Assembly: GCA_947577185.1 (NCBI GenBank)
Contig: CANPUE010000002.1
Span: 62,001 to 126,000 of the forward strand
From: an uncultured Lachnospiraceae bacterium
GTDB lineage: Bacteria; Bacillota; Clostridia; Lachnospirales; Lachnospiraceae
DNA: 64,000 nucleotides
Direction: 5' to 3'
Shown: positions 43,307 through 46,581 of the stretch, one piece after another
Layout: each line of letters opens with the position of its first letter
Numbering within the stretch: position 1 is the first letter of the stretch
Notes under the pieces: generated by a model
What the model saw: only the letters and a program-made list of their open reading frames with translations
What the model was told of the DNA's origin: nothing
The model's database searches: none
Made by a program: the position numbers and the translations under genes

Positions 43307-44359
43307 TTAGCCAAGTAAGGACAGTGCCAGCTGATTGGACTGATTTGCCTGTGACAGCATAGAGGTACCAGCCTGCTGTAAGATGTTGTTGTTAGAGTAC
43401 TTAACCATCTCTGTAGCGATATCCGTATCACGGATTTCAGCTTCTGCAGATGTGGTGTTCTCAGCGATGTTGTTCAGGTTGTTGATCGTGTGCTCTAATC
43501 TGTTCTGGATCGCACCAAGATCAGATCTCTGCTGGGAAACAACTGACAATGCGCCTTTAACAAATGCATTCAGAGAGTTGAACGCCTGCGATGTAGCAAC
43601 CGTGTCAGGATCGCCTGCTTTCAGGTTCATCATTGTAGCGATTACCTTATTTGCAATCGCAGTTGTCATTGCGATCTTGTTGTACTTACCGCCTGCACCT
43701 GAAGCAAATGTTGACCATGTAGCTACGTTGCTGCTGCCAACACTGCCAACCATCTGGCCATTCCCATTGTTTGCATAAGTAGTAGAGCCGATCGTAACCG
43801 AACCTGCTCTCAGGTTGTTGTAAGATACGCCTGTGTAAAGTTTGTTGTCGATGCCCGCTGCAAGACCATACATACTCATGTTGGCAATACTGATGCTGAT
43901 ATGCTGACCAGCTTCTGCACCAACCTGGATACCTTTGATGAATGTACCGTCAAGAAGGCTCATCTCGTTGAATGTCGTTGTGCTCTGTACACGGTCGATT
44001 TCACTCATCAACTGAGCAACTTCGGACTGGATCGCGGAACGGTCTGTTGTTGTAAGAGTTCCTGTTTCACCCTTTACAGCCAGCTCGTTCATTCTCTGTA
44101 ACATATCCTCAACTTCGTTCAATGCACCTTCTGCTGTCTGTACTGCACTGATACCGTCCTGAGCGTTAGCGGAAGCCTGATTCAGACCTCTGATCTGACG
44201 TCTCATCTTCTCGGAAATTGCCAACCCTGCTGCATCATCTGCTGCGCGGTTGATTTTATATCCGGAAGATAATTTCTCTGTTGACTTTGCCTGTGCGCTT
44301 GTTGTCAAACCAAGCATTCTGTTCGCGTTCATCGCCGTAATGTTGTGTTGTACTACCAT
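43307..44359 (-). CDS. fliC: Flagellin
   Basis: A 350-residue flagellin. The conserved D0/D1 N-terminus (about 1-140) includes NITAMNANRMLGLTT, SSGYKINRAADDAAGLAISEKM and SEIDRVQSTTTFNEMSLLDG. The D1/D0 C-terminus (about 265-350) includes DLGAIQNRLEHTINNLNNIAENTTSAEAEIRDTDIA and ends in NQLALSLLG. The central variable part is short. AAGGAGG precedes the ATG. It lies downstream of csrA, with no sigma-28 promoter visible between the two genes; the nearest is inside the invertible segment. The leader contains a CsrA-site-like hairpin. Confidence 0.97.
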   Translation of the reverse strand: MVVQHNITAMNANRMLGLTTSAQAKSTEKLSSGYKINRAADDAAGLAISEKMRRQIRGLNQASANAQDGISAVQTAEGALNEVEDMLQRMNELAVKGETGTLTTTDRSAIQSEVAQLMSEIDRVQSTTTFNEMSLLDGTFIKGIQVGAEAGQHISISIANMSMYGLAAGIDNKLYTGVSYNNLRAGSVTIGSTTYANNGNGQMVGSVGSSNVATWSTFASGAGGKYNKIAMTTAIANKVIATMMNLKAGDPDTVATSQAFNSLNAFVKGALSVVSQQRSDLGAIQNRLEHTINNLNNIAENTTSAEAEIRDTDIATEMVKYSNNNILQQAGTSMLSQANQSNQLALSLLG

Positions 44360-44368
44360 AAAATACTA

Positions 44369-44405
44369 CCTCCTTGTTTTTGTCCGCCGCAACTCCGTTT
44401 GCGGC
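44369..44405 (-). promoter_or_regulatory. Candidate CsrA-binding hairpin next to the flagellin ribosome site
   Basis: GCCGCAA pairs perfectly with TTGCGGC around the loop ACGGAG (44386-44405), which presents GGA as CsrA sites do. The flagellin ribosome site AAGGAGG (44369-44375), also with a GGA, lies 10 bases downstream. Two GGA elements bridging the ribosome site is the pattern of CsrA repression of B. subtilis hag. Confidence 0.65.
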
Positions 44406-44512: not shown

Positions 44513-44794
44513 CTATTTCACAATGTTTTGCTCATGTTTTGCAGAATCATTTACCACCGCCTTCTTTTTCTGATACTTTTCCGGCGCTTTTGGCACTTCA
44601 TAGTAGTGCGGGAGTTTTTCTTTTGCTGACGGGTCAGTCGTATTCCGCTCAATCACCTTATTGCGCACAACATTTACATCTTTGGGCACATCCAGCATGA
44701 TACGGATATGATTTTTACTGCCTCCGAGAAATACGATCTTAATATTTTCCCCGATCATCAGATAATCTTCCGGGCACACCGTCAGCCTCAGCAT
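44513..44794 (-). CDS. csrA: CsrA-family regulator with a C-terminal extension
   Basis: A 93-residue protein. The first ~55 residues are CsrA-like: MLRLTVCPEDYLMIGENIKI, then HIRIMLDVPKDVNVVRNKVIE. The RNA-contact Arg of the second site is kept (VVRNK), but position 6, usually Arg, is Val. A Lys-rich tail of about 40 residues makes it longer than the usual 60-75. GGGAGG precedes the ATG at 44794. It is cotranscribed with flagellin and probably represses flagellin translation. Its upstream region is cut by the left recombination site. Confidence 0.88.
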   Translation of the reverse strand: MLRLTVCPEDYLMIGENIKIVFLGGSKNHIRIMLDVPKDVNVVRNKVIERNTTDPSAKEKLPHYYEVPKAPEKYQKKKAVVNDSAKHEQNIVK

Positions 44795-44818: not shown

Positions 44819-44849
44819 ATGCAACATTTTGTATGAAAATGTTGCATTT
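44819..44849 (+). repeat. Left 31-bp inverted repeat (recombination site L)
   Basis: Arms ATGCAACATTTT and AAAATGTTGCAT flank the asymmetric spacer GTATG (44831-44835), followed by TT. The reverse complement, including the spacer, is exactly repeated at 45585-45615. The site lies 25 bp upstream of the csrA start codon. Confidence 0.95.
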
Positions 44850-44909
44850 GAATTTATTTATTATCTGGAGTAGATTATCACATAAAAACAATGTAAAGGA
44901 GAAAACAGC

Positions 44910-45491
44910 ATGAGCGCGACAGAACCAATCAGAAGCATGGAAGTATTGAAACAATTTGAAGCATATTATGTGGATATCAAGCCGGATCCCCGTAATTACA
45001 CTATGGTCATTGCAGGCTTAAACACAGCTTTTAGAATCGGAGACCTGCTGAAATTGAGATGGAAGGATGTGTTTGATGAAAATACAAGGCATTGCCGCAA
45101 ACATATCTATGTCATTGAACAAAAGACAGGCAAGGAAAGAATCGTGGCCATTAACAAACTACAGCAACAGGTATTCGAGCAGTATCATGAGATTATACGG
45201 CCGCTCCGGCCGGAGGAATATCTTTTTACAAGCAAAAAAGAAAAAGGACTGCCGCTCTCCCGTTATCAGGCGTACCGCATTATCAAGGAAGCAGCCCACT
45301 ATATAGGACTTGAGGAGCATATCGGCTGTCATTCCCTCAGAAAAACATTTGGCTACCATGCGTGGAAACAGGGAACACAGCCTGCAATGCTGATGGATCT
45401 CTATAATCATTCCTCTTATCAGATTACAAAACGCTATCTGGGAATCGATCAGGATGAACAGGACAATGTATACCTTCGAGTCCAGCTCTGA
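44910..45491 (+). CDS. Tyrosine recombinase (DNA invertase, FimB/XerD-like)
   Basis: A 193-residue protein consisting of only the catalytic domain, the size of FimB/FimE. The active-site set is complete: Arg42 (AFRIGDLLKLRW), Lys72 (EQKTGK), His141-x-x-Arg144 (CHSLRKTFGYH), His167 (LYNHSS) and Tyr176 (TKRYLGI). AAAGGAG precedes the ATG. It lies between the inverted repeats, whose arms and short spacer fit tyrosine-recombinase core sites. It should invert its own segment. Confidence 0.93.
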   Translation: MSATEPIRSMEVLKQFEAYYVDIKPDPRNYTMVIAGLNTAFRIGDLLKLRWKDVFDENTRHCRKHIYVIEQKTGKERIVAINKLQQQVFEQYHEIIRPLRPEEYLFTSKKEKGLPLSRYQAYRIIKEAAHYIGLEEHIGCHSLRKTFGYHAWKQGTQPAMLMDLYNHSSYQITKRYLGIDQDEQDNVYLRVQL

Positions 45492-45540
45492 ATGCCCTGA
45501 TGAAAAGGTAAAATTTTTTTGTAAAAATATTATTTAGCTC

Positions 45541-45567
45541 TAAAGTTTTATGATCCCCGGCCGATAT
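45541..45567 (+). promoter_or_regulatory. Sigma-28 (SigD/FliA) flagellar promoter
   Basis: TAAAGTTT, 11 bp, GCCGATAT: an essentially perfect match to the flagellar sigma consensus of Gram-positive bacteria. It reads to the right and is 17 bp from the right recombination site. No flagellar gene lies downstream in this orientation; the first gene is thiT. Confidence 0.92.
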
Positions 45568-45584
45568 ATAAAGTGTACTCATAG

Positions 45585-45615
45585 AAATGCAACATTTTCA
45601 TACAAAATGTTGCAT
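45585..45615 (-). repeat. Right 31-bp inverted repeat (recombination site R)
   Basis: Exact reverse complement of the left site, with spacer CATAC at 45599-45603. The palindromic arms followed by six T (45615-45620) also form an intrinsic-terminator shape for plus-strand transcripts; the left site lacks the T run on its outer side. Confidence 0.95.
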
Positions 45616-45661
45616 TTTTTAGTATATCCGATTCTGAAAAATTTATCATAAAGATACCGTA

Positions 45662-45690: not shown

Positions 45691-45739
45691 AAGTTATAAC
45701 GTTAACGTACAACTACATACAGCAGTCAATCAAACAACT

Positions 45740-45826
45740 CGCTAGGGGAGCACATCGCTGAGATTGAGAGAAACATCTCTCTAACCCTCACTACTTGAAC
45801 CGGGTAATACCGGCGTAAGGAAGCAT
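45740..45826 (+). ncRNA. TPP riboswitch (THI element)
   Basis: The aptamer consensus is clear: AGGGGAGC, GCTGAGAT, a variable stem, AACCCTCACTACTTGAACC, GGGTAATACCGGCGTAAGGAAG. It binds thiamine pyrophosphate in the thiT mRNA leader and represses the gene when the cofactor is plentiful. Confidence 0.95.
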
Positions 45827-45846
45827 GTTTTAACATGATGTCGTTC

Positions 45847-45876: not shown

Positions 45877-46581
45877 ATGTCACAGTTTTTTATGAAAGAG
45901 GACGGATACTATTCTCTGACCACGGCAGGCACTGTTGTCCTCTGCCTCATCATCGCCGCTTTGGTCATTCTCACAGCATTTTTGAAAATTCAGGACAAAA
46001 AGAAAAGTTCTGAAGAAAAAGAGAAAAGCGGGCAAACGGGATTTTCTTCAAAGCAGCTTGTCTTCTCAGCCGCCGCCCTTGCCCTTGGTTTTGTCACTTC
46101 CTATATCAAAATCATCCACATGCCATGGGGCGGCTCCGTAACGCTCTGTTCCATGCTGTTTGTTACTCTGATCGGTTACTGGTATGGCCCCAGGGTCGGC
46201 CTGACCGCCGGTTTTGCCTATGGTATCCTGCAGTTTGTTCAGGGGGGAGGCTCTTTCATTCTCTCTCCGCTCCAGGTCTGCATGGACTACATTCTTGCGT
46301 TCGCCGCGCTCGGTTTGTCCGGCTTTTTCCACAACAAGATAAACGGATTAATAAAAGGATATCTTTTCGCAGTCTTCATCAGAGGCCTCTTCCACACAAT
46401 TGGAGGATACCTGTACTGGATGGATTACATGCCTGACTCCTTCCCGCAGTCACTCGGATTCATTTATCCCTTCGCCTACAATTATGCGTACCTTCTGGCT
46501 GAAGCATTGATAACAGTTATTATCTTATTGCTCCCACCCGTAAAAAACGCCATGTTCCGCGTAAAATCCATGACTGCCTGA
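45877..46581 (+). CDS. thiT: Thiamine transporter ThiT (ECF S component)
   Basis: A 234-residue protein with six or seven membrane helices. The ThiT substrate region is visible: MPWGGSVTLCSMLFV, GYWYGPRVGLTAGFAYGILQF and RGLFHTIGGYLYWMDYMP. An extra N-terminal helix and a Lys-rich linker precede the core. It binds thiamine and works with a general ECF module encoded elsewhere. The ATG at 45877 has AAGGAGG upstream, under direct control of the TPP riboswitch. Confidence 0.93.
   Translation: MSQFFMKEDGYYSLTTAGTVVLCLIIAALVILTAFLKIQDKKKSSEEKEKSGQTGFSSKQLVFSAAALALGFVTSYIKIIHMPWGGSVTLCSMLFVTLIGYWYGPRVGLTAGFAYGILQFVQGGGSFILSPLQVCMDYILAFAALGLSGFFHNKINGLIKGYLFAVFIRGLFHTIGGYLYWMDYMPDSFPQSLGFIYPFAYNYAYLLAEALITVIILLLPPVKNAMFRVKSMTA

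Follow-up and report, generated by a model that had tools for sequence, protein, structure and literature searches.

A probable flagellin phase-variation switch that carries its own tyrosine recombinase in Lachnospiraceae

Why should a gene for a small tyrosine recombinase be enclosed between two perfect inverted repeats and placed directly beside a csrA homologue and a flagellin gene? The arrangement lies in a contig segment of 64,000 nucleotides from an uncultured Lachnospiraceae bacterium, here called the window, and the initial annotation had read it as an invertible segment that travels with its own invertase and controls the neighbouring csrA-flagellin genes. Our analysis of the window and its relatives leads us to a similar answer: the locus is very probably a flagellin phase-variation switch that is flipped by its own tyrosine recombinase and carries a sigma-28 promoter. 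The features on which the argument depends are the following (positions in the window).

43307-44359, minus strand: flagellin of the module (350 aa), encoded second in the putatively controlled operon
44386-44405, minus strand: flagellin-leader GGA hairpin GCCGCAA-ACGGAG-TTGCGGC, a putative CsrA-type site of the module class
44513-44794, minus strand: csrA paralogue (CsrA2; 93 aa), leading the putatively controlled operon
44819-44849, no strand: csrA-proximal recombination site, with palindromic arms flanking an asymmetric 7-nt centre TGTATGA (44830-44836)
44910-45491, plus strand: tyrosine recombinase, presumed invertase, 193 aa, catalytic domain only
45541-45567, plus strand: sigma-28 (FliA) promoter motif TAAA-N15-GCCGATAT, within the segment and facing away from csrA
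45585-45615, no strand: distal recombination site, perfect inverted copy of the csrA-proximal site
45734-45838, plus strand: TPP riboswitch before thiT (45880-46581), a neighbour outside the switch

The two 31-bp sites are separated by 735 nt and show an inverted identity of 100%, while the longest inverted repeat in eight mononucleotide shuffles of the surrounding 2.5 kb reached 10-12 nt, against 31 nt in the real sequence. The description of the sites as perfect inverted copies is therefore borne out by identity and shuffle control, as is the asymmetry of their spacer (GTATG/CATAC); the distance of 25 bp formerly given between the left site and the start of csrA is corrected to 24 nt, counted to the start codon (44794). 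A search with the site pattern across the 2.49-Mb, 67%-complete assembly returned two matches only, 44819-44849 and 45585-45615, and the reversed control pattern returned none across the same assembly.

Relatives were collected from 77 genomes of the genus, the window's own included, and from named genomes. The recombinase was matched at E values up to 1e-30 in 40 of the genus genomes, and module recombinases were present in 38/77, with two genomes (G079 and G081) holding only 44%-identical paralogues. With the best 80 of 140 named-genome loci added, 159 locus rows collapsed to 119 distinct recombinase genes, 92 of which are csrA-linked, window included. The other 27, with no csrA found alongside, stand outside the orientation counts given below; a sigma-28 motif accompanies three of them.

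The recombinase belongs to the tyrosine recombinases by its Pfam profile (PF00589, E 3.1e-24, above the cut-off, matching residues 28-179) and by its catalytic R-K-H-R-H-Y set. In an alignment that covered 89 of the 92 csrA-linked loci, R42, K72, H141, R144 and H167 were invariant (89/89) and Y176 was kept in 88 of 89, a pattern of conservation that upholds the complete active site claimed for this protein at the outset; the predicted structure has low confidence around Y176. The absence of an arm-binding domain was also read correctly, but the reading was incomplete: the protein consists of the catalytic domain only, in the Pfam match as in the structural model, which leaves it without the usual core-binding domain as well. 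A likeness to FimB and FimE had also been proposed, and it stands in size and way of working, since the E. coli enzymes are single-domain tyrosine recombinases of ~200 aa that act on an invertible promoter, fimS, as is proposed here; they lie outside the fimS segment, however, unlike the recombinase of the window. The likeness does not extend to subfamily membership, given scores of 41.9 bits against a cut-off of 222 for PRK09871 and 36.2 against 221 for PRK09870, two profiles that we take to be the FimB/FimE models (the model table itself speaks of a tyrosine-type DNA invertase). A sequence search against solved structures gave matches to XerC-like 4a8e and XerA 5hxy, which we take as real; the pentatricopeptide proteins in the top rows of that search were judged to be chance matches because no stretch passes on its own.

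A tyrosine recombinase between repeats, matched best among the PHROGs by an integrase family, might alternatively mark a small mobile element that is driven by an integrase and for which the two sites serve as attachment ends. We regard this as extremely improbable, because recombination between inverted sites would invert the segment, not excise it, and because 92 of the 119 distinct recombinase genes adjoin a csrA located outside the segment; moreover, no relative of the recombinase was found in viral contigs at the sensitivity of the search. We also give very little credence to inversion of the segment by another recombinase acting in trans: the assembly does hold further recombinases, at 25-35% identity to the module enzyme, but each module retains its own recombinase between its own pair of sites. 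The reading that we prefer is that this enzyme, whose catalysis we infer, would recombine the two inverted sites and thereby flip the ~0.8-kb segment together with its own gene and one sigma-28 promoter.

The promoter motif, missed by the initial annotation, follows the stop codon of the recombinase and precedes the right site. It reads TAAA-N15-GCCGATA, where the sigma-28 consensus is quoted as TAAA-N15-CCGATAT (PMC3720852), and the genome encodes a FliA (271 bits). With 24 nt between the left site and the start of csrA, the promoter of this gene would be expected inside the segment, and a sigma-70 scan of the segment interior in the direction of csrA found no site, one weak match overlapping the csrA start. 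Because the sigma-28 motif faces away from csrA and flagellin, we read the window as OFF; flipping the segment would bring the promoter to a position immediately before the two genes. The inverted repeats thus flank a promoter, recognised by motif only, that faces the gene in one orientation, as in an inverton, and, as in a Hin-type arrangement, the invertase and the flagellin promoter motif both lie within the segment. The same layout recurs among relatives. In the 250 nt next to the 3' end of the recombinase, an outward sigma-28 motif occurs in 73/92 distinct csrA-linked loci and an inward one in none (0/92), against a background rate of 0.0022 per 250 nt. On the 5' side of the recombinase the motif points outward in 2/92 and inward in 0/92. 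Both of these loci belong to a variant, L166 being OFF and L177 ON, whose promoter stands on the 5' side of the recombinase and whose sites have different arms; the two recombinases are 86% identical.

Strand exchange between two sites makes a demand on their centres, and this demand can be followed across loci. Well-centred site pairs were obtained from 64 of the 92 csrA-linked loci (28/92 gave none; L049, L145, L192 and L177 were struck from the set by hand). The 7-nt centre was asymmetric in all 64 loci and identical between both sites of a locus in 63/64 measured pairs, even though 35 different centres occurred and mean agreement across loci was only 3.0 of 7. A match within loci combined with variety between loci corresponds to the requirement of strand exchange across an overlap, and centres that are matched yet locus-specific would not be expected of operators. 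Genomes with several modules conform to this pattern: all sites were readable in 9 of the 11 listed, and the centres differed between modules in 9/9, by at least 1 base and in some cases by exactly one. Such differences should hinder recombination between modules of one genome.

Sequences outside the sites are asymmetric as well. Of the 9 nt that border the distal site on its outer side, at least 5 are T in 60/64 loci, against 5/64 for the proximal site, and in the window a T-run (45615-45620) adjoins the distal site. Because the T-run is conserved outside the distal site, the distal palindrome suggests an intrinsic terminator of an outward transcript. In the OFF state of the window, the promoter would read outward through the distal site, where palindrome and T-run probably terminate the transcript; we infer this termination, since a terminator scan of the window listed the left site and not the right one. 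In the ON state, the promoter would read through the proximal site into csrA2 and flagellin, and thus yield a second flagellin and, with it, a CsrA paralogue devoted to it.

If the segment inverts, relatives should include both states. The window's assembly shows a single orientation. Orientation classified by the position of promoter and csrA, with a looser motif scan, gave 73 OFF, 5 ON (L140, L137, L171, L180 and L177) and 14 unclassified loci of 92; a sigma-28 motif went undetected by the scan in 14/92. The search for the opposite orientation in related genomes that had been proposed as a check has thus returned it, and the occurrence of both orientations among relatives, which typifies invertons, is a direct observation. 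Five csrA-linked records are not titled as metagenome-assembled genomes, four of them OFF (L126, which is the same gene as L038, L148, L162 and L170) and one unclassified (L161); in L148, no flagellin adjoins csrA. Cultured commensals with the module include Eubacterium sp. 14-2 and strains 0.1xD8-71 and 1xD8-48, and Roseburia faecis M72 carries switch and csrA, although no flagellin was found next to them. The ON locus L177 has a 59-aa csrA call and lacks the flagellin. On the recombinase tree the ON state requires five changes, and the ON loci scatter no more than they do with shuffled labels; the tree therefore shows recurrence and nothing beyond.

The T-run provides a fixed mark for the flanks. 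In four of the five ON loci (L137, L171, L180 and L140), it stays on the side away from csrA and lies at the 5' end of the recombinase, mirroring the OFF loci, and the comparison shows for these four that the segment is reversed and not its surroundings. L171 and L180, with 5 T on their csrA side too, show this less clearly, and in the proximal site of L140 the outer half is degraded. This last locus belongs to the window's genus, and its recombinase is 85% identical to those of the OFF relatives L055 and L056. A comparison of the flanks of the five ON loci with those of OFF loci revealed no convincing case of one genomic location occupied in both orientations: tblastx matches were weak for L137, L180 and L177 (the best, L180 to L114, at 95 bits; for L137, 31% over 87 aa with L051, an OFF relative, in the flank of L051 away from csrA), and the flanks of L140 and L171 matched no other locus.

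These observations also bear on the reading that the palindromes are operators or terminators only and that the recombinase is a stranded relic, with no inversion taking place. Each site is itself a hairpin when folded, orientation is strongly skewed to OFF among relatives (73:5), and in L065 (genome G022) the recombinase is split into two frames, all of which would suit a relic. We nevertheless find this reading highly unlikely, since asymmetric centres that match in inverted register within loci and differ between them, five ON loci and conserved catalytic residues all speak against it; L065, whose sites still match at 26 of 27, is possibly a locked OFF copy. An invertible segment with its own invertase, controlling csrA and flagellin, is instead supported by the two orientations, the flank mark and the matching centres taken together.

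What, then, would the switch control? The csrA of the window carries a CsrA domain (Pfam CsrA, 57.4 bits against a cut-off of 27) with R44, which is kept in 92/92 CsrA2 proteins, but the two NCBIfam equivalog models for CsrA score it below threshold, at 32.3 (cut-off 73) and 24.6 (cut-off 70.1). R6 and N55, the residues that mark a CsrA with FliW as partner, are present in 22/22 canonical CsrA proteins and neither occurs in CsrA2 (0/92 for either, in an alignment that is loose around position 55). Sequence comparison thus identifies the window csrA as a separate paralogue, distinct from canonical CsrA; the same genome also holds a canonical fliW-csrA pair, with fliW adjoining the canonical csrA. 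Since N55 is missing, and since an N55D change makes B. subtilis CsrA deficient in FliW binding (PMC6529632), CsrA2 may, by analogy, escape FliW. The paralogue accompanies the recombinase: a CsrA match in the diverged E-value band occurs in 38/38 module genomes and, once G100 is set aside, in 0/39 others. Six weaker CsrA matches above the cut-off were also recorded (G028, G030, G099, G022, G078 and G035), two of the six in genomes without a module. The second CsrA of G100 was considered as a CsrA2 without recombinase and rejected, because its neighbour, within a second flagellar locus, is a FliW-like ORF. This second fliW-csrA-like pair (L199:4448-5267), with FliW recognised by eye, is an observation in its own right.

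The genome of the window encodes another, core flagellin with a sigma-28 motif upstream, near which the assembly-wide pattern search found no copy of the recombination site. By gene content, the controlled genes are a second flagellin and a CsrA paralogue, not the sole flagellin of the cell. The two flagellins of this genome are identical at 344 of 350 positions, and switching would therefore hardly change the antigen here; the 12 other genomes compared have module and core flagellins that agree over only 26-68% of the middle region. The two genes (window 43307-44359 and L197:10232-11284) differ at 1 position in the first 560 nt and at 30 in the last 493 nt, an uneven divergence that suggests recent gene conversion.

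Leaders of the flagellin genes offer candidate targets for CsrA2. They were available for 88 of the 92 csrA-linked loci, and folding revealed a GGA hairpin in 86/88; a stem of at least 4 pairs occurs in 83/88, against 3% in mononucleotide shuffles. The closing pair of the hairpin is A-T in 82/88 module leaders and C-G in 17/18 core leaders, the latter taken from 18 flagellin starts in 22 core regions. As module leaders possess a separate class of hairpin, CsrA2 is taken to control its own flagellin, most likely at the level of translation and through this module-specific GGA hairpin. The main alternative role keeps the same switch but has CsrA2, when ON, repress translation of the core flagellin in the manner of FljA, which would swap one flagellin for the other as with FljA/FliC in Salmonella. 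Core leaders do hold GGA hairpins and a GGA that overlaps the Shine-Dalgarno sequence, both possible targets of repression, a CsrA2 with R44 but without N55 may act free of FliW, and in the 12 genomes the two flagellins diverge in their middle regions. Against this, the A-T-closed hairpin of the module leaders better fits binding of CsrA2 to its own message, R6 has been lost, the alignment at position 55 is loose, and both flagellins of the window genome are nearly identical. We consider FljA-like repression possible but doubtful.

Distant paralogues of the recombinase deserve separate mention. Copies of ~45% identity with inverted repeats of their own precede NeuB-family genes (L061:6756-7577, L109:4004-4825 and L060:2718-6119; in L060 a TPP enzyme comes first, then the NeuB-family protein) and might switch nonulosonic-acid glycans of the surface or the flagellum. 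Two csrA-less relatives (L133 and L150) lie just downstream of genes, to the right of the recombinase, that are presumably atpD-atpC-like, as named from their translations; no site pair was found in a search of these two loci.

Lachnospiraceae flagellins are prominent antibody targets in Crohn's disease. Gut flagellins have been described to act on TLR5, and Crohn's disease to raise antibodies to them. If a heritable, mostly OFF switch governs flagellin in about half of the genus genomes examined (38/77), the presence of a flagellin gene in a metagenome would not amount to its production. More tentatively, a convergent, tyrosine-recombinase counterpart of Salmonella phase variation may be widespread in Lachnospiraceae, in which each spare flagellin is accompanied by a FliW-independent CsrA paralogue that silences translation of the resident flagellin, and in which modules insulated by their overlaps multiply into combinatorial repertoires held mostly OFF in the gut; we hold this broader scenario with low confidence.

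On comparative evidence the switch appears to be real and widespread, a new variation on known flagellin phase switching. No description of the module was found in the literature that we searched, although a 2019 inverton survey may list some such inversions; the main text of PMC5903667 does not contain the terms csrA, Roseburia, Eubacterium or Lachnospir-. The RecV-dependent Cdi4 switch of C. difficile shares a tyrosine recombinase, inverted repeats and flagellar phase variation with the module (PMC5386303). It differs in that RecV inverts the cwpV switch as well and in that the flagellar switch, 154 bp long, takes effect once transcription of the early flagellar operon has been initiated (PMC5386303). 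The Hag-FliW-CsrA system of B. subtilis resembles the proposed role of CsrA2 in that CsrA acts on the flagellin leader at the Shine-Dalgarno sequence (PMC6529632), whereas CsrA2 is a second, diverged copy that lacks N55 and R6, with fliW beside the canonical csrA.

The hin/fljBA switch of Salmonella has a flagellin promoter inside a flipped segment that also holds hin, and the fljBA operon likewise pairs a second flagellin with a regulator (PMC9368917); its segment measures 966 bp (PMC5903667). The recombinase is a serine enzyme in Salmonella and a tyrosine enzyme (PF00589), not a serine invertase, here, and the regulator is FljA there and a paralogue of the RNA-binding CsrA family here, with csrA ahead of the flagellin. 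The nearest system that we found in print is that of the csrA-tldR-fliC loci, which share the csrA-flagellin link, an invertible FliA-dependent promoter and an occurrence in gut commensals (PMC13418256). These loci are described with a serine Hin beside a ~120-bp inverted stretch and with an RNA-guided TldR (PMC13418256), whereas the window has a tyrosine recombinase within a ~0.8-kb segment. The same regulatory logic would thus have been assembled from unrelated parts, a tyrosine recombinase and CsrA in one case and a serine recombinase and FljA in the other.
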